This document shows positions 1 to 43,000 of a stretch of DNA of 64,000 nucleotides, piece by piece. The translations under genes and the position numbers were made by a program. The stretch is from Rhynochetos jubatus. Its lineage: Eukaryota > Chordata > Aves > Eurypygiformes > Rhynochetidae. The notes under the pieces were generated by a model. That model saw nothing but the letters and a program-made list of their open reading frames with translations, had not been told where the DNA came from and made no database searches. Location of the stretch: contig CM050666.1 of NCBI GenBank assembly GCA_027574665.1, positions 1,488,001 through 1,552,000 of the forward strand. The letters run 5' to 3'. Numbering within the stretch: the stretch's first letter is position 1; each line of letters opens with the position of its first letter.

Positions 1-16
1 ACCAGGGAGGTGAGCT
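1..16 (-). CDS. Ubiquitin-like gene, start of exon 5 (partial)
   Basis: A pyrimidine-rich acceptor (CCTCCTATCTGCAG) ends at 17 and leaves an 80-bp intron, which is short but normal for birds. The phase-2 join reads RAHLPG before the window ends. Tentative because only 16 bases are visible. Confidence 0.4.
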
Positions 17-3000
17 CTGCAGATAGGAGGGATGACAGGCTTATGCCACCTGAGATGAGGCTTTTGGAAGCTCCCGCTTCACCTGACAGCTCTTACCGGT
101 ATACAGTACACTTCAGAGAGTCTTGGGTTATCTCTGGCGTCACTTCTGGAATATCCTGCAACACAAGTGTGGCCAGTTTGTGGCTGAATGGGGTGTTGTG
201 CACTAGGTGCTGCTTGCAGGAGGTGTGCTGGGATTTAGAGTGAAGCATGATGCAGCTTGGCATGAGAGCTTGGAGCCTCGCAAGCAGTAGCAGGGGATCA
301 GCAGCTGCTGCCTGGTGCCCAGAAACACTCATCACTCTCATCAGTGAAGAGGCCAGAAAAATCATTGACTGGCAATTCCTCTGCCCTAGGATCTGAAACA
401 AGCACGTCCGAGGCTCACGACCCCTTTAATGCAGACACCTGCAGCATTGTCCAAAAGAAATTCTGCACACAGGCACAGCATGGAGGACTGAACATAGCCC
501 CATTTGGGTAGATGCCACTGGGATGGGGAAGACATTGGTTAGTCCATGCGTCTCCCATGCATCAGGAGGAAAGATGGTGGAGATGCAGGACAGCTCCTGG
601 CACTCCAAACTATGTGTTTCACCCACTGATTTTTAGGTTGTATTTTGCAAATGGGAATTCCAGATAGGAAAGTTGCTGTTTCCTCTGAGAGAAAATGTTG
701 TTGGCTGCTGACTTTCTTGTGAGTAAAGCCTGAGCTGTTCCCTCTCTGCCATAGTGTATCAGCAGAGAGGGCAGTGGCCACAGGCAGATGAAATGTTTAG
801 CAGCAAGAACAAATCTAGGATACAAACAAGTGCAATTTGTCTTCCCACAAACTTGAAAACTGGGGCAGCGTGTGCTGAGTTAGTGTAGCAAAAGGGACCA
901 GACTCTTCTGGAGGATGAAGAATTGCTGTGAATAACAGGGTTTGAAGGCACACCCAACCTCCCAGGGTCAGTCCCAGGCTCCCTGCTGTGCCATTTCTTT
1001 TGGGTGCGACAGTGGGCTGCCAAGCCTGGCAAAGCCCTTACCTCCTTCATGCAATGCCAGCAGCTTTGCGGCAGCTCAGAGTCCAGTTTCAGCCAGTGAT
1101 CACTCTCCTGCAGAGGGCAACATGGGAAATTGCACTGTTATTTCTCCCCTCCAGCCTTGCTTGCCTGCTAGAGGCAGGAGGAGAGGTCTTCTGTCAACAT
1201 GAGCAACACCCGCAGTGTCAGTTGTAGTGCTTGCCTGGCTCCTCACTCCTGCAGGGAGGAAACAGGCTGGTGTGGGAGCTGTGCCTGCCTGGCCTGCCGC
1301 AGGGTGAGGTCTCTCTCCTGGGACCAAGGGCAGCACCCAACAGCTCTTGCCACCCAGCACAGTGCTGCAGTGGTGATGGGCAGCACCGGACCCCCCCATC
1401 TGCAGGGCCGTCTGTGAGCCCGTACACTGCAGCCGTGCCTTCCTCTCCAGCCCTGCAGTGTTCCTCACTCAGGCACCCCAGCCACAGGTATCATGTCCCA
1501 TGAGACCTCACCTCTGCACTCCCCAAGGCTTCATCTGTCAGAGATTTGCTGGGGCCTGCCACCAGCTTCCTTAAGGCTAAGTCTGTGACTGGAACAACAG
1601 AAAGACATTATCATTTTTGCCTCAGGTTTAGGAGAAGAAGACATCCTCAAGCATCCTTCACCCAACCTTCCCAATCCCATTAGCTGCACTGTTCCACTCG
1701 TGTACCACTGTATGCTCCCACATCGACCACAACTTCCACATCCTCCTCCATGAACAGTGGCAGGGACATGCTCACCACCGTGCAGCAAGGTCCTACACTC
1801 ACCACCGTGCAGCTCCACCAGCCCTGCTGCACCAGGTTGTCAGTGGGGACCAGGGCATGACCTTACCTGAAAATTCAGGTTCAACAGCTACACCACCACC
1901 TCGCACTGCAACAGCAACAGAAAGCAGAGGAGAGCTCAGGAGCCAGGTCATGTCCAGAGGAGTATCCCATCCTCTGCCCATCCTTTCCCTCTTCTTCACA
2001 CCTTAGCTATGAAACCTCTTCCTGACAGTTTGTGCCTGTGTGGTTTAACCCCAGCTGGCAACTGAGCTCCACACAGCTGCTGCCTGGGGACTGGCTGGGC
2101 ATTGGTCAGTGGGTGGTGAGCAATTGCATTGTGCATCACTTGTTTTGTATATTTTTGTATCATTATTATTATTATTACTACATTATTTTATTTCAATTCT
2201 TAAGCTCTTCTTATCTCAACCCACGATTTTTCTCACTTTTACCCTTCCAATTCTCTCCCCCATCCTATCATAGAGAGGAGTGAATGAGCAGCTGTGTGGT
2301 ACTCAGTTGTCCACTGGGGCTAAACCACAATGGTGCCCATTCACATACCAAGCTGTCTGTCACCAGGAATCCCACACAGCTGCCTTTCCCGGCAGGGCAG
2401 CACACTGCAGGGCTGAGAACACACTCCTAGGCTTCACTTCTCCATCCCTCCCTGCTGCCATGCAAAGAGCAGATTTCTTGCTCAGCTTCGGGAAGCAGAG
2501 TCCTTCCTCACCCTCTTGCCTTCCTCCTGCATAAGTACATCCCTGGGCCCTCACCTTCCTCCCACCTTCCCGTGCAAGCATGCTTAAGCAGCTCCCTGGT
2601 GCACACAGCCCCAGTCGCCTTGCCCCTTCCCTCCTGCCTTCGGTCCTGGCCACCGTCCCTCCTCAGGAAACACCCTGACCTGCACCCACTCCGCCTCTCC
2701 CACTCCAGACAGATCCACACTCACCTCCCCCAGGCCACCCTGCACTTACATATTGCTGTATGGTACAAAAAGGAGTTGGGTGTGACTTCATAGTGTTGTA
2801 GGGTCAGGTCATCCTCCATCTGCCTGCCGTTGTAGTGCAGCATTCCTGCTTCAGGGCTCAGGGAGGAGTCCTGTGCATTCAGCTTGGCCTTGAGCTCCCG
2901 CACGCTATCATCCAGAGACACTGGCACTGCAAGCGTTTTGCCCCTCACCGTCTTGATGAAGATGCAGAACTTGCTGGGGCTGTGGGCTGCAGGCTGCGAC

Positions 3001-3023
3001 TCTGCCATGGCTCTTTCAGCCAT
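1..3023 (-). CDS. Ubiquitin-like domain gene, probably interferon-inducible (5' part; runs off the left edge)
   Basis: Spliced host gene read right to left: exons 2750-3023, 1867-1905, 1512-1588, 97-155 and the start of another at 1-16. All junctions are GT-AG and the phases agree (1, 1, 0, 2). Residues 19-95 form a ubiquitin fold: CIFIKTVRGKTL matches the first strand of ubiquitin, GRQMEDDLTLQHY matches the segment GKQLEDGRTLSDY, and the fold ends in LRGG, as ubiquitin does. An extension follows, starting GVAVEPEFS and continuing through TDLALRKLVAGPSKS and DIPEVTPEITQDSLKCTVYR, in which I recognise no domain. A GAAANNGAAA element lies 37 bp upstream of the ATG, which suggests control by interferon regulatory factors. 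Known: free LRGG tails are conjugated to targets, and LRGG inside a chain can be cut by deubiquitinases. Inferred: a modifier precursor or a protein with a fixed N-terminal ubiquitin-like domain. The full identity is unknown because the 3' end lies outside the window. Confidence 0.75.
97..155 (-). CDS. Ubiquitin-like gene, exon 4
   Basis: A 59-bp exon with acceptor TGTGTTGCAG and donor CCG|GTAAGA. Phase 0 in follows exon 3 and the reading is DIPEVTPEITQDSLKCTVY, ending in phase 2. Not recognised as a known domain. Confidence 0.6.
156..1511. other. Intron 3 of the ubiquitin-like gene
   Basis: About 1.36 kb of unique-looking, moderately GC-rich sequence. No convincing exon, repeat or RNA gene was seen. 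The open frames on both strands lack paired splice sites. Confidence 0.5.
1512..1588 (-). CDS. Ubiquitin-like gene, exon 3
   Basis: A 77-bp open exon with acceptor TTGTTCCAG and donor GAG|GTGAGG, entered in phase 1 and left in phase 0. It encodes 26 residues starting VTDLALRKLVAGPSKS. No domain is recognised. The phase fit with both neighbours is the evidence. Confidence 0.6.
1771..1812. repeat. Two-copy tandem repeat
   Basis: The 15-mer CTCACCACCGTGCAG occurs at 1771 and again at 1799 (last base differs in spacing only), a 28-bp period. It lies in the intron between exons 2 and 3 of the ubiquitin-like gene. No function seen. Confidence 0.6.
1867..1905 (-). CDS. Ubiquitin-like gene, exon 2 (LRGG tail)
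   Basis: A 39-bp exon between a pyrimidine-rich acceptor (TGTTGCAG) and the donor CAG|GTAAGG, phase 1 in and out. Joined to exon 1 it completes a Leu codon and reads LRGGGVAVEPEFS, so the ubiquitin C-terminal motif straddles the splice junction exactly where the fold should end. That match is the main support for such a small exon. Confidence 0.75.
2037..2330 (+). mobile_element. ERVL-type LTR fragment with fold-back ends (fossil)
   Basis: The middle and right parts match the 3' half of the avian ERVL-type LTR family as I remember it: the CATTGTGCATCACTTG stretch, an ATT-rich run and the TTATCTCAACCCACGA block, ending in TAAACCACAA. The left arm (about 2037-2082) is an inverted, slightly diverged copy of the right arm (about 2285-2330), so the ends could pair as a hairpin. 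It lies in intron 1 of the ubiquitin-like gene. An old non-coding fossil. Confidence 0.7.
2750..3023 (-). CDS. Ubiquitin-like gene, coding exon 1
   Basis: Encodes 91 residues plus one base (phase 1) and ends at a strong donor (T|GTAAGT). The start at 3023 has a purine at -3 and G at +4. A second in-frame ATG at 3008 sits in an even better context (GCCATGG) and would drop only five residues, so either start gives the whole ubiquitin fold, which begins at about residue 19. Confidence 0.8.
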
Positions 3024-3059
3024 CACAGGAAGTCAGGCTTTGGCTCCGTCACTTCCCAA

Positions 3060-3071
3060 GAAACTGAAAGT
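3060..3071 (-). promoter_or_regulatory. Interferon-stimulated response element upstream of the ubiquitin-like gene
   Basis: On the + strand this reads GAAACTGAAAGT, matching the IRF/ISRE consensus GAAANNGAAA. It lies 37 bp before the ATG at 3023, the distance seen in classical interferon-stimulated genes. ETS-like GGAAGTGA and ACTTCCTG motifs lie between it and the ATG. Binding is inferred from sequence only. Confidence 0.6.
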
Positions 3072-13283: not shown

Positions 13284-15558
13284 CATCGAATCATAGAATG
13301 GTTTGGGTTGGAAGGGACCTTAAAAATCATCTAGTTCCAACCCCCCTGCCATGGGCAGGGACACCTTCCACTAGACTAGGTTGCTGCAAGCCTCATCCAG
13401 CCTGGCCTTGGACACTTCCAGGGATGGGGCACCCACAGCTTCTCTAGGCAACCTGTCCCAGTGCCTCTCCACCCTCTCTCTGAAGAACTTCTTCCTGATA
13501 TCTAATCTAAATCTTCCTGCTTTCAATTTAAACCCATTACCTCTTGTCCTGTCACTACAGGCCCTTGTAAAAAGCCCTCCCCCAAGCTTCCTTGTAGGCC
13601 CCAGCCCCCTTCAGGTACTGGAAGGCTGCAATAAGGTCCCCCCGGAGCTGTCTCTTGTCCAGACTGAACAAGCCCAATTCTCTCAGCCTTTCTTTGTAGG
13701 AGAGGTGCTACAGCCCTCTGATCAGCTTTGTGGCCTCCTCTGGACTTCCTCCAACCGGTAGATATCCTTCTTATGTTGAGGGCTCCGGAGCTGGACACAG
13801 TACTCCAGGTGGAGTCCCATGAGAGCAGAGCAGAGGGGGAGAATCCCCTTCCTTGACCTGCTGGCCACGCTTCTCCTGGTAGCCCAGGATATGGTTGGCT
13901 TTCTGGGCTGTGAACTCACATTGCCAGCTCATGTCCAATTTTTCACTGACCAGTTCCCCCAAGTCCTTCTCCTCAGGGTTGCTCTCAATCCGTTCTCCAC
14001 CCAGCCTGTACTTGTGCTTGGGATTGCCCCAATCCATGTGCAGGACCTTGCACTTGGCCTCCATGAGGTTGGCACAGGTCCACCTCTCCAGCCTGTCCAG
14101 GTCCTTCGGGATGGCATCCCTTCCCTCCAGCGTGTCAACCACACCACACAGCTTGGTGTCATTGGCAGACTTGCTGAGGGTGCACTCCATCCCACGGTCC
14201 ATGTTGCTGACAAAGACGTTAAACAGCACTGGTCCCAATCCTGATCCCTGAGGAACGCTGCTTGTCACTGTTTTCTACTCAGAAGTCAAGCAGTTGACCG
14301 TAGCTCTCTCAGTATGACCATCAGGACAGTTCCTTATCCGCCAAACAGCCCATCCATCAAATCCATGCCTCTCCCATTTAGAGACAAGGATGTCGTGCAG
14401 GACAGTGTCGAACGCTTTGCACATGTCCAGGCAGATGACATTGTTGCTCTTTCTTCACCCACCAAGGTCGTGACCCCGTCGTAGAAGCCACCAGATTCGT
14501 CAGGCACGACCTGCCCCTGGTGAAGCCATGTTGGCTGTCACCAATCACCCCCCGTTTTCCATGTGCCTTTGCATGGTTTCCAGGAGACCTGCTCCATGAC
14601 CTTGCCAGGCACAGAGGTGACACTGACTGGCCTGGAGTTCCCTGGATCCTCCTTTTTTCCCTTTTTAACGATGGGGAACATGTTTCCCCTTTTCCAGTCA
14701 GCGGGAACTTCCCCAGACTGCCACGGCTTCTCAAATGTGATGGATAGCGGTTTCGCAACCCCAGCCGCCAGTTCTTTCAGGACCCACGGATGTCTCCCAT
14801 CAGGTCCCATGGACTTATGCACCTTCAGGTTCCTCAGATGTTCCCAAACCTGATCCTCTCTAACCATGGGTGGCTCTCCACCCACTGGGTGGCTTCTCCC
14901 AGTCCCTGCCCTTGCCTTCTGCAACTCCGGGGGGTATGGCTTGCACCCTTGCCAGGGAAGACCGAGGAAAGAAATCATTGAGCACCTCGACCTTCTCCAT
15001 ATCCTGGGAAACAAGCTGTTCCATTTCCTTCCGCAGAGGGCCCACATTTTCCCTGCTCTTCCTTTTATCCCCTGTGTACCCACAGAAGCCCTTCTTGTTA
15101 CCCTGGGTGTCCCTGGCCAGGTGTAATTCTGTCAGAGCTTTCACTTTCCTAACCTGATCCCTGACTTCTCTGACAACTTCCCTGTAATCCCCCCAGGGAC
15201 AGGGAGTCCCTGCTTCCATCCACTGTAGGCCTCCTTCTTCTGTCTCAGTTTGTCCAGGAGCTGCTTGTTCATCCACACAGGCCTCCTGGCATTTTTACCC
15301 ACCTTCCTCTTCATTGGGATGCATCGCTCCTGAGCTTGGAGGAGAAGATCCTTGGATACTCCCCAGCTTTCTTGGGCCCCTCTTCCCTCCAGGGCTTCAT
15401 CCCATGGAACTCTGCCAATCAGTTCCCTGAAGAGGCCAAAGTCTGCTCTCCTGCAGCCCAGGGCAGCGAGCTTGCCGCGCACCCTCCTCACCTCCGTAAG
15501 GATCTCAAAATCCACAATTTCATGGTCACGGCAGCCCTTACCTGCAGTGAAAACTTGA
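13284..15558 (-). mobile_element. CR1 LINE, 5'-truncated, 2.3 kb
   Basis: The 3' end at 13284 carries the CR1 hallmark (on the - strand, CCTTCCAACCCAAACCATTC and then ATTCTATGATTCGATG). Moving right, the - strand encodes pieces of CR1 ORF2: the linker after the endonuclease (GRVPWDEALEGRGAQESWG, RPVWMNKQLLDKLRQKKEAY), reverse transcriptase (PVSVTSVPGKVMEQ, SVPQGSGLGPVLFNVFV) and the C-terminal domain. The endonuclease and ORF1 are missing. The catalytic FADD-type motif reads SANDTKL and the frame is interrupted several times, so it cannot be active. It belongs to one of the mid-length CR1 subfamilies; I cannot name which. Confidence 0.93.
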
Positions 15559-37000: not shown

Positions 37001-40000
37001 CTTCCGAGTTTGCCTATTTCTGGAACTTGTTGGACACTAGGCTGGACCCTGTCATGGGGAAATGGAGGGTAGGAAGAGAACACAAGCTGTCCTATATTGG
37101 AGCTGGAGTTGGGAGGGAACAGCTGCTCCCTGCACGTGGGATGTTCTCCCTTGATTACAGCCCCCAGGTCAGCAGATCCAGTCTGGGGAAATGAGGAGCA
37201 CACTGCAATCTCCCTCTCCTGAAGTCTAACTTGTGGATTGTAGCCTGAGCAGAGGGGAAAACCAGCCTGGCTGACTTTTCCCTTGCTGCTGGGCAACATT
37301 TTTCCCTTCGCTGTGCCCCTGCTGTTTGTTGACTGAAAGCTGGGGTGTGACGCAGCTGCTCTCCGAGCTCAGCTGGGCTGTCCTGGTGTACAGCAGGGCT
37401 GGAGAGTCATCAGTATCCTCAGCAAAGTCACTCAGCAGGCAGCATTAGCTGTTCCTGAAGGAGCTTTCTCAGGCTTGACCAGCTAAATTTACCGGTCTGT
37501 TAAAGACCAAGGTCTGTTCTGGTGGATAGGAAAGGAGATTTCAAAGCTGGGGGTGTGAGGAAGGAGTGTTGGGAAGAGACTACCCATCCAGTCCTGCGTT
37601 GAGGACCAATATCTAGCCATGCCCAGCAGAGCTGAGGCAAGCGACCATGGTCCCCTGCTTTGTCTTGCCCAGGGCTACCCACTGCTGTGCTGCCCTGCTT
37701 GGCTCCCCATTGTCCTTGTGGAAATCCTTGTAGATTTGGATGAATCTTTACTATCAAAAATTGAATTTGCAAGGAGGGCTCATGTGAGGATCAACTTGGC
37801 ATCAGTGTAGCGTCAGTCCTGGCTCAGCGTGCTCCAGGCAGTGTGGAGGACAGCCTCCCTGCTCTCTCTTCTACCGTCCCCTGCCTCCTTCAACAGGAGC
37901 ATTTTGTTGTTAAACTAAACCATGACACTGTCCAGGTCCATCTTCTTTCATTGGTATTACAGAAACTCTGGCCCTTACAACACTCATCACTGAGCAAGGC
38001 TTCCTTGGTTGAGAAGAGACTCAGGACTTCTCACCTGAGCTCTCCATTCCCACCAGTTTCTCCAGGGAAGAAGGAATGTGCCCACCAAGCCATCAAGCTG
38101 CCTGCCTGCAGGGGACAGCACACTCCGAGTCAGCTTTTTGTTTGATTTAGGCTTTTTTCCTGTGTTTAAAATCAAGCAAACAAAAAAGCCTCAAAGAAAT
38201 TACATGGAGAATCCTCTACAGTGAATCGTGCAATCGCACTTCAGCTGTGAAGGGAGAACTCCCTGCCCTCCATGTTGAGCTGTAAATTCACCGAGACCTG
38301 AGTGAGGAGAGGGGAAGATGCAAGGCACTTCCCAGACTAGGGGAGTTCAAGGGTCCCTGAGCTTGTGAGAGGTCTGTTAGCATTGGCAGCACTCCTCAGC
38401 TTGGTTGGTGTGTGTCATGGTTTAGCCTTATCTGGCAATTAAGTACCACACAGTCGCTTGATCATCTCCCTTCCCCCCTTCCCCAGTGAGGGGAGTCAGA
38501 GGAAAAAACAAGGAAATCTCGTAAAATTCAGCTAAGATATATTTAATAATATAAATGAAAATTATAACTATACTAAAAATACTACTACTACTAAGTAATT
38601 AAAACAATAGGAAATAGAACATACAATACAGTAGCTCACCACGTGCTGACTGACACACAGCCAGGTCCCAAAGCAGCGAACAGTCCCCGAGTGCGACAGC
38701 TCCAGAGCGGGGAGAAAACCTCAAGTCCACCCCTTGATCACAAGCCCACCTGTATGTGGCATCTCTCCCCTGGTGGCACGAGGTGTCATGGGCCCACCTA
38801 GCCATGAACAGCTCACCTTTATGTTGCCAGTTCAGATCCACCTGAGCCACTGCAGTCTTAGCAGCCTGGTCTACCTGCTGATTGTGTTGGTGTTCTTCAG
38901 TGGGTCAGCTTTTGGGCACATGGGCATCAATGTGACGCACTTTGACAACCAAGTTTTCTAGCCAGAAAGCAGTATCTTGCCGTAATGTGGCAGCCCAGAT
39001 GGATTTGCCTCAGCGCTGCCAGTTGCTCTGTTTCCACTGCTGTAGCCATCCCCACAGTGCATTTGCCACCATCCACGAGTCAGTGTAGAGGTAAAGCACT
39101 GGCCATTTCTCTCGTTTAGCAATGTCCAAAGCCAGCTGGATGGCCTTTACCTCTGCAAACTGACTCGATTCCCCTTGGCCTTCTGCAGTCTCTGCAACTT
39201 GTTGTGTGGGACCCCACACGGCAGCTTTCCACCTCTGATGTTTCTCTACAATGTGGCAGGACCCATCAGTAAACAGGGCATATTGCTTCTCGTCTTCTGG
39301 CAACTGGTTGTACAAAGGGGCTTCTTCAGCCCGTGTCACCTCCTCCTCTGGTGACATTCCAAAGTCTTTACCTTCCGGCCAGTCCATGATCACTTCTAGG
39401 ATTCCTGAGTGACTGGGATTCCCTATGCGGGATCGTTGTGTGATCAGGGCAACCCACTTACTCCATGTAGCATCGGTGGCATGGTGAGTGGAGGAGACTC
39501 TGCCTTTGAACATCCAACCCAGCACTGGCAGTCGAGGTGCCAGGAGGAGCTGTGCTTCAGTTCCAACCACTTCTGAGGCAGATCGAATTCCCTCATAAGC
39601 TGCCAGTATCTCTTTTTTGGTTGGCATATAGTGGACCTCAGATCCTCTATATCCCCGGCTCCAAAATCCAAGGGGTCGACCTCGGGTGTCCCCTGGTTCT
39701 TTCTGCCAGAGACTCCAGGTAGGGCCATTCTCCCCGGCTGCGGTGTAGAGCACATTCTTTACCTCTGGCCCTGTCTGGACTGGTCCAAGGGCTACTGCAT
39801 GCACAATCTCCTGCTTGATCTGTTCAAAGGCTTGTTGCTGCTCAGGGCCCCATTTGAAAATGTTTTTCTTCTGGGTCACTGCATAGAGAGGGCTGACAAT
39901 TTGGCTGTAACCCACAACATCTAGGAAAGCTTGAGTTTCCTTTTTGCTTGTTGGTGGGGACATAGCTGTTTTTTTGTTGATCATGTCCATTGTGATCTGG

Positions 40001-43000
40001 CAACGTCCATCTTGCCACTTTATTCCTAAGAACTGGATCTCCTGTGCAGGTCCCTTGACCTTACTTAGTTTTATGCAAAACCGTCTTTCAGAAGGATTTG
40101 GATGATGTTCTTCCCCTTCTCAAAATCTTTGTCAACTCTGTTGCCCCATACAATGATGTCATCAATGTACTGTAGATGTTTGGGAGCTGCACCCTGTTCC
40201 AGTGCAGCCTGGATCAGTCCTTGGCAGATGGTAGGACTGTGCTTCCACCCCTGGGGCAGCCAATTCCAGGTGTATTGGATGCCCCTCCAGTTGAAAGCAA
40301 ACTGTGGCCTACACTCTGGTGCCAAAGGAATGGAGAAAAAGGCATTAGCAATGTCAGTCGTGGCGTACCACTTGGCTGCCTTTGACTCCAGCTCGTATTG
40401 GAGTTTCAGCATGTCCAGCACGGCAGCACTCAGTGGTGGCGTGACCTCATTCAGGCCACGATAGTCCACTGTCAGTCTCCATTCTCCATCAGACTTACGC
40501 ACTGGGCAGATGCGGCTGTTAAAGGGTGAGCGGGTTTTGCTGATAACCCCTTGGCTCTTCAGCTGACGAATCAGCTTCTGGATGGGAAGCAAAGAGTCTC
40601 TGTTAGTGCTATACTGTCGCCGGTGCACTATTGTGGTGGCAATTGGCACCTGTTGGTTTGCAACCTTTAGCAGTCCCACAACAGAAGGGTCCTGTGAGAG
40701 ACCAGGCAAGACGGACAGCTGCTCAATTTCCTCAGTCTCTACAGCAGCTATCCCAAAAGCCCACCGGTACCCTTTCAGGTCCTTAAAGTACCCGCTCTTG
40801 AGATAGTCTGTGCAAGGATGTACGGGGCATCTGAGCCAGTCACAATGGGGTGCTTTTGCCACTCCTTCCCAGTCAGGCTTATTTCAGCCTCCAGCATAGT
40901 CAATTGTTGAGAGCCCCCAGTCACACCAGAAATGCTGATGGGTTGTACCCCCCTATAGCTTGATGGCATGAGGATACACTGTGCACCCATGTCCACTAGA
41001 GCCTTATAATCCTGTGGCTCTGATGTGCCAGGCCATTAAATCCATACAGTCCAGTAAACACAGTTGTCCCTTTCCTCCACCTGGCTGGAGGCAGGGCTCC
41101 TCTAAAAGTGAGCTGATTCACAGTCACTCATGTCTTGGAGGAATGGATTATGGGTCAAGTCAGATCCTCCATCCTGTTTGGATATGGGAGCAGTGATTTT
41201 TCTGGAACAATCCCCACTGGTGAATTTTTCCCCTTTCAATTCACTTACTTGTTCCTCTAGAAGAGAGGTAGGTTTTCCCTCCCATCTCCTCATGTCCTCT
41301 CTGTGGTCTTGCAGGTGAAACCACAGGGTACTCCATGATGGATACCTTTTGTATTCCCTTCTGCGAGCAGAGGAATGCTTACTCCTAACAGCCAAGATAC
41401 TGGCTTATGCAGGTGGTGGAACATCTCTCTGAATTGCTTAAATTTCTGGGACACTCTCTCTACAGCTGAGACACAAGCCTGTGTGGGGGAAGAGAGACTT
41501 TCCTCATATTCTGGAAACAGCAGATCAGCTCACCTACTGTCAGAGCCTCATCCTCTTTCCAAGTTATTATTGCAAGCACACTGGCATATGAGGGTGGCGC
41601 ACTCTGCATTAACTTCTGCCACATGGGTCGTGTGTGCTGAACTTCATCTGGATGGGTGGGTGGTCATGTGTTGTTCAGGTCACAGTGAACAGAACACCTC
41701 TACTGCGAAGAAAGGCTGAGATAATTGGGATTGTCCAGCCTGGAGAAGAGAAAGCTCTAGGGAGACCTTATAGCACCTTCCAGTACTTGAAGGGGACCTA
41801 CAATAAAGCTGGGGGGGTGGGAGTGGGGATTTTTACCAGGGCCTGTAAATGGGTTTAAATTGAAAGCAGGGAGATTTAGATTGGATATCAGGAAGAAGTT
41901 CTTCATGGAGAGGATGGTGAGGCACTGGGACAGGTTGCCCAGAGAAGCTGTGGGTGCCCCATCCCTGGAAGTGTCCAAGGCCAGGCTGGATGAGGCTTTG
42001 AGCAACCTGGTCTAGTGGACGATGTCCCTGCCCGTGGCAGGGGGGTTGGAACTAGATGATCTTTAAGGTCCCTTCCAACCCAAACCGTTCTGTGATTCTA
42101 TGATCTCCAGCACTGCTTGTTCCCTCAGGTACTGTATACCTTTCTCAATGGTGGTCCATTCGCATGGCTGAAGTGGCACACTTTAATGGAAGTGGAGCCA
42201 CTGGGGGAAGTGGAGTTGCTGCAGTGGGAGGTGGACTTGCTGTGGTGGGAGGTGGCATGACCGCAGTTGCAGGTGATGTGGTTGTGGTGGGAGGTGATGT
42301 AGCCACTCTTGCAGCCACACAGGCTTGGAGTACTGCCCTGTACACTGCACAGGTCTGCCCCACCCCCCTTTGCACTAGGGCGACTCCAGTGTCCGCACAG
42401 AGCCTTCATCTGCCCTGAGCACTGGTGGTGGATGGGGCAGCATTCCCAAGCATTTCCTTAACTTTAAACAAAATCACTAGAACATTTACAAGGAAGCTGA
42501 TCCCTGACCATAGGTCACCCCAATCCCATGAAAAATTTCCAAAATACTCATATGCCTTTGCCATTGGCCCGAGAAGAAGGGAAAAATTGTAATAATTTCT
42601 CCACGTCCATCCCATCACCAAATAATCTCTCCTTTATAGGCTGAGTTCCTGAGGAGAAAAAGGGAAAGGTGTAATTATTGAAAGCTTCCAGGAGATAGTT
42701 CACAAAGTACCAGGGGGCCGACAGTATTGAATACAGATACAGACAGAGGATTCCTCCCAACACCAGCAATACACTGGACAGTCTAACCAAACCCCTCAGC
42801 CCAGTTCAAGCATATAAGATCAGGATAATAAGGAATACGTAAGGCAGTACGATGACACCGTTCTGTTAGCAACTTAAGAAGCCCTGAACTCAGCATCTGG
42901 ATCAGACACCACCACATTGCTATAAAGAATACTTATCATACACTAATCAGATCTATTCTTATCACACACTAATCAGATCTGTTCTTATCTCAACTGTCTC

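Follow-up and report, generated by a model that had tools for sequence, protein, structure and literature searches.

Viral proteases are sensed by means of disordered tripwires by two human proteins of the FIIND-CARD type, CARD8 and NLRP1 (PMC12945228), which operate by functional degradation (PMC12945228, PMC7483925). CARD8, which recruits caspase-1 without ASC, has an N-terminus described as unstructured (PMC12945228, PMC7483925); PMC10249858 reports its presence in mammals and mentions neither birds nor reptiles. The kagu (Rhynochetos jubatus) carries, at the left edge of the stretch of DNA analyzed here (the window: 64 kb, C21:1488001-1552000, of a 1.33-Gb genome), a gene that is, as judged from its sequence, a member of the CARD8/NLRP1 family of FIIND-CARD sensors. 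Given the unstructured N-terminus described for human CARD8, the N-terminal ubiquitin-like domain (UBL) of the kagu protein, which terminates in an RGG tail, constitutes a different front end. The family is known; the UBL head of the kagu protein is without description in the literature searched. We put at roughly 0.8 the probability that the product is an inflammasome sensor of UBL-FIIND-CARD layout and of the functional-degradation type, a mechanism extrapolated from the family, the corresponding sequence features of which are present in the FIIND-CARD half.

On the assembled chain, Pfam detects, in this order, ubiquitin (4.1e-13), FIIND (8.8e-46), UPA-FIIND (9.2e-29), and CARD (6.9e-17) domains, and nothing else at E-values up to 0.001; a linker separates the UBL from the FIIND, which consists of ZU5 and UPA. 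Among PDB sequences, the FIIND-CARD part is closest to human CARD8 (8.8e-71) and human NLRP1 (1.3e-70), and the CARD alone matches chains of CARD8 (1.1e-12) and NLRP1 (9.1e-4). The autocleavage residues H252 and F278|S279 (518-aa numbering) align with H270/F296/S297 of CARD8 and H1186/F1212/S1213 of NLRP1 (positions counted by hand from the alignments), and the His and F|S are retained in all 52 UBL-bearing sequences considered (kagu plus 51 others, isoforms included). Human CARD8 and the kagu protein share the FIIND (ZU5 and UPA)-CARD order, the F|S site with its His, a CARD8-type CARD, and the absence of NACHT and LRR domains. Human, rodent, and marsupial NLRP1 are homologous to the kagu protein from end to end of FIIND-UPA-CARD, but the kagu chain has no PYD, NACHT, or LRR domain. 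An earlier annotation made from the letters of the window (hereafter, the sequence-only reading) could match the C-terminal extension to no family; the protein search that it proposed identifies this extension, by both Pfam and PDB sequence comparison, as the FIIND-UPA-CARD of CARD8/NLRP1. Searched alone against PDB and Pfam, the portion of the extension visible in the window is uninformative, as the window edge cuts through the FIIND. In one FIIND search of the kagu assembly, the UBL gene was the only FIIND-CARD locus found; the other FIIND locus (C12:2558669-2559121) is followed by a Death domain and was inspected for UBL and CARD by reading open frames only.

No description of a UBL front end on a FIIND-CARD protein was found in searches of open-access PubMed Central directed at this architecture or at CARD8/NLRP1 of birds; PMC8195603 mentions FIIND and Ubl, but in other contexts. 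The databases do contain the proteins, mostly under the name CARD8-like. For some birds, UBL first exons of the family are entered under the names polyubiquitin (UBIQP) or ribosomal RL40 and lack the FIIND-CARD part (P0002-P0007).

The gene is encoded on the minus strand and reaches 7.6 kb beyond the left edge of the window, to position -7626. The model, assembled from the window and 10 kb of left flank, comprises 11 coding exons separated by ten GT-AG introns of consistent phases, and the predicted chain is 518 aa long from the ATG at 3008 or 523 aa from the ATG at 3023. The joins of exons 9-11 were settled by comparison with homologs, which adds part of the UPA-CARD linker. A deposited kagu CARD8 fragment matches the predicted chain at 341 of 354 positions, with the differences located at gene-model junctions. 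The features are as follows:

3060..3071, minus (gene) strand, GAAACTGAAAGT on the plus strand: element of the interferon regulatory factor (IRF) type, resembling an interferon-stimulated response element (ISRE) or positive regulatory domain I (PRDI); 36 bases lie between it and the ATG at 3023
2750..3023, minus strand: exon 1, with in-frame ATGs at 3023 and 3008; beta-grasp UBL without its tail (Pfam ubiquitin, 3.9e-13)
1867..1905, minus strand: exon 2, 39 bp; the splice completes the LRGG tail, which is followed by GVAVEPEFS
1512..1588, minus strand: exon 3, 77 bp; linker, the matching stretch having a predicted local distance difference test score (pLDDT) <50 in the model of the crane (Grus) homolog
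1042..1107, minus strand: exon 4, 66 bp, phase 0/0; ESDHWLKLDSELPQSCWHCMKE; counterpart in Grus P0009
97..155, minus strand: exon 5, 59 bp; end of the linker and start of ZU5 (FIIND)
16 to -204 (C21:1487796), minus strand: exon 6, ZU5/FIIND, of which the window holds 1..16 alone
Within C21:1480374-1486505, outside the window, minus strand: exons 7-11; remaining FIIND, UPA, CARD, and stop

The sequence-only reading had described a spliced, poorly documented UBL gene of birds with an IRF-type element near its start, and this description is right. The sequence bears out all five exons and four junctions that it proposed: the splice sites are GT-AG, and the phases agree. The ubiquitin fold divided over two exons is recovered, far above chance, by Pfam (3.9e-13) and by ubiquitin PDB chains, which align at residues 16-90, and the LRGG tail is indeed created by the splice between exons 1 and 2. 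The three further phase-matched exons exist, yet the 66-bp exon at 1107-1042, between 1512 and 155, had been overlooked, and the exon starting at 16 continues to -204 and is followed by five more coding exons outside the window. The leftward extension that it called for carries the reading frame on within the 10-kb flank and delivers the full FIIND-UPA-CARD.

A search for full-length homologs with a 498-aa chain (without part of the UPA-CARD linker) scored 7990 candidates and retrieved 228 relatives at E ≤ 1e-5, with 120 of the relatives listed. Among these 120, 51 combine a Pfam ubiquitin domain (PF00240) with FIIND, including proteins of ostrich, rhea, fowl, cranes, eagles, owls, falcons, and one turtle, and 69 are without the ubiquitin domain, many of them labeled partial. 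A turtle-based search (120 listed of 256 found) added further turtles with the UBL architecture, alongside FIIND proteins of turtles, squamates, and marsupials with other N-termini. Crocodilians were absent from the listed sequences, no search having been aimed at them. In the first phylogenetic tree, UBL-bearing bird and turtle proteins grouped together (support 100/99), with one UBL-less owl sequence (Bubo P0155) inside the group. After removal of six sequences with long branches or patchy matches, including Bubo P0155 and the duck sequence Oxyura P0181, 16 UBL-bearing sequences (11 from birds and 5 from turtles) fell on one side of a branch with support of 100/100. NLRP1-type and PYD-bearing sequences remain outside this clade, and turtles possess both types. 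In the best tree, human and elephant CARD8 stand beside mammalian NLRP1; the alternative grouping with the bird and turtle proteins is not rejected by the approximately unbiased test (p-AU 0.303). FIIND proteins of reptiles (turtles and squamates) carry varied other Pfam domains, namely PYD, zinc fingers, PF03000, and PF25597; this variety looks like a frequent swap of the sensing end, and some of the combinations may be gene-model fusions.

Within the protein, the UBL diverges faster than ZU5, UPA, and CARD: mean pairwise identity among 28 hand-picked birds is 0.50 for the UBL, 0.28 for the linker, 0.69 for ZU5, 0.76 for UPA, and 0.70 for CARD. Identity figures and column ranks rest on the hand-picked sequences, to which nine turtles were added for the ranks (37 in total), and tail counts on all UBL sequences. 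The hand pick left out Buteo, Accipiter, Aquila, Falco naumanni, Chroicocephalus, Larus, Rissa, Columba livia, Charadrius, and Phasianus, and took Mauremys reevesii P0138 rather than the better-ranked, tail-less P0136. When each species is represented by its best-ranked UBL sequence, the RGG tail is found in 24 of 39 bird species (followed by Gly in 19 and Ser in 5) and in 7 of 9 turtle species, with Gly next in all 7. The corresponding values are 25/39 and 8/9 if any sequence of a species is admitted, 29/51 and 11/13 if bird and turtle sequences are counted individually, and 19/28 and 8/9 in the hand-picked set. A strictly invariant RGG tail is ruled out by these counts across species; set against the rapid divergence of the UBL, the tail is moderately conserved. 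Among the 77 UBL columns, G76 ranks 9th in conservation, R74 12th, the following Gly 16th, G75 19th, and L73 20th; the tail therefore belongs to the better, not the best, conserved parts of the domain. In a set of 29 sequences, K29 is kept in 26, the position of I44 is occupied by I, V, or L in 27, and K48 is a Lys in 2; the kagu itself has Ile at ubiquitin R72 and His at I44. In the AlphaFold2 model of the Grus homolog, the UBL and CARD are confident, and residues 94-152 have pLDDT <50, so that the linker is predicted to be disordered in the crane. A Foldseek search with this model returned rat NLRP1 and human CARD8 first, followed by ubiquitin.

By analogy with the family, the protein would cut itself after F278, with the two halves remaining associated. 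Delivery of the N-terminal half to the proteasome, by whatever trigger, would free UPA-CARD, which would oligomerize and recruit caspase-1 directly, without ASC. Avian caspase-1 would then cleave gasdermin A and cause pyroptosis; bird caspase-1 is known to cleave GSDMA with this outcome (PMC10948149), and gasdermin matches are present on three kagu contigs. The UBL and linker would form the variable sensing end, a position that in human CARD8 is occupied by the unstructured tripwire. The likeliest role for the UBL, proposed tentatively and at well below even odds, is that its RGG tail serves as a cut site for viral or cellular deubiquitinases and Ubl proteases, the new N-terminus, often Gly, acting as a degron. 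The more specific version, a decoy-ubiquitin inflammasome of birds and turtles in which the RGG-G tail baits viral deubiquitinases and deISGylases (papain-like and OTU proteases), we consider rather doubtful. Removal of the bait would expose an N-terminal Gly, the N-terminal half would be destroyed by the Gly/N-degron route, and UPA-CARD would be released. When human NLRP1 is cut by the rhinovirus 3C protease, a Gly/N-degron recognized by ZYG11B/ZER1 becomes exposed (PMC13379236). Viral OTU and papain-like proteases (PLpros) cleave at LRLRGG ends; of the enzymes tested, 7 of 14 OTUs and half the PLpros showed some cleavage of chicken OASL (PMC8764230). Taken together, these findings suggest that an RGG-G junction atop a FIIND-CARD module would make a sensible bait.

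Several observations weigh against this picture of the sensor. Eleven of the 39 birds and two of the nine turtles have neither RGG nor RAGG, four birds have RAGG, and Ser rather than Gly follows the RGG in 5 of the 24 RGG-bearing birds. The species with Ser, with RAGG, or without a tail speak against the bait idea in its strict Gly-degron form; some of the missing tails may reflect faulty gene models at the 39-bp exon 2. Oxyura P0181, a FIIND-CARD protein without UBL, lies on a long branch outside the UBL clade in the first tree and is possibly a second avian lineage. Furthermore, none of ten UBL-less sequences not labeled partial (eight of them from the homolog listing) showed a ubiquitin domain when scanned at E-values up to 1; the UBL may therefore have been lost in some birds (parrots, emu, kiwi, condor), and it is likewise possible that the models are truncated or poorly annotated. 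The structure model of the Grus protein is weak overall, with a mean pLDDT of 62, a predicted template modeling score (pTM) of 0.36, and UPA below 50, and the top Foldseek matches reach template modeling (TM) scores of 0.28-0.29 over the query. UBL-less CARD8-like models were seen in condor, parrots, kiwi, and emu (P0034, P0048, P0056, P0079, P0099, and others).

Alternatively, the UBL could be a built-in proteasome-docking or ubiquitin-fusion-degradation signal which, with its tail uncut, determines basal turnover and how readily UPA-CARD is released. Such a signal is compatible with the sequences that lack RGG, and members of the family are known to be triggered by N-terminal degradation; K29 and the I44-type residue, widely retained as noted above (26/29 and 27/29, respectively), fit as well. 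Conversely, docking has no need of a kept RGG tail, the kagu lacks the I44 residue, and Lys occupies position 48 in just 2 of 29 sequences. We regard this explanation as possible, if somewhat doubtful.

A free-modifier precursor, cut by host deubiquitinases after LRGG during or after translation in the manner of ubiquitin-ribosomal fusions, would yield a conjugatable UBL, a stand-in for ISG15, plus a FIIND-CARD protein. The LRGG|G end and the ranks of R74, G75, and G76 accord with such processing, birds lack ISG15, and chicken OASL is able to form conjugates (PMC8764230). However, the kagu substitutions at R72 and I44, the latter position being I, V, or L in nearly all sequences compared, are at odds with a modifier, as are the 11 birds without RGG and the 4 with RAGG, and the fast divergence of the UBL suits a bait better than a modifier that requires its own E1/E2. 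This scenario is accordingly unlikely.

An interferon effector of the ISG15 or OASL type, as suggested by the UBL and the IRF-type element and favored by the sequence-only reading, is highly improbable because the kagu chain has FIIND-UPA-CARD where such an effector would have another UBL or an OAS domain. OASL comprises an OAS domain and two UBLs. The kagu protein has no OAS fold and a single UBL, located at the N-terminus, although avian OASL resembles it in having a ubiquitin-like domain with an RGG-type end that is a substrate of some viral OTU and PLpro enzymes (PMC8764230). ISG15 likewise shares an LRGG-ended UBL and possible interferon control, but consists of two UBLs (PMC8228270) in contrast to one UBL joined to FIIND-CARD. 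Kinship with both is thus confined to the ubiquitin fold, and membership in either family is ruled out by domain content.

The near edge of GAAACTGAAAGT lies 37 positions from the ATG at 3023, as previously reported, and 52 from that at 3008. The GAAANNGAAA core occurs once in the 392 nt upstream of the ATG at 3008 and nine times in the 64-kb window, which corresponds to a chance of about 1% in any 60-100 bp. The stricter ASTTTCNNTTTC is found once in the window against 0.26 expected, and at least once in 20 of 100 shuffles; the exact 12-mer GAAACTGAAAGT is present 605 times in the kagu genome compared with 495 for the reversed control. By itself, then, the element is modest evidence; it suggests induction by virus or interferon. 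Chicken CARD8, which we infer to be the ortholog of the kagu gene, is among the genes higher in embryo tissue 36 h after infection with virulent versus avirulent Newcastle disease virus (PMC9145607, Table 1).

Beyond the UBL gene on its right, the plus strand at 31329-59308 of the window encodes Rieske and pyridine-nucleotide oxidoreductase domains, presumably pieces of an AIFM3-like gene. The next gene found leftward, about 10 kb from the window edge on the minus strand, encodes POLE, the catalytic subunit of DNA polymerase epsilon (PDB match 1e-80). Also on the minus strand, and identified by eye, are long retroviral pol-like frames at 39010-40119 and 40071-40883, probably an endogenous retrovirus, and broken reverse-transcriptase frames at 13771-15131 resembling a CR1-type long interspersed element (LINE).

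Even if the bait idea fails, the locus represents an avian and turtle inflammasome-type gene whose UBL is not described in the open-access literature searched. If the idea is correct, a whole UBL with a protease-type tail would make a tripwire of a new class, directed against a different set of viral enzymes, and birds, which are without ISG15, would have in it a candidate for sensing viral deubiquitinases. Should the UBL indeed act as a decoy, a virus that removes ubiquitin-like tags in order to suppress immunity would set off a pyroptotic alarm.

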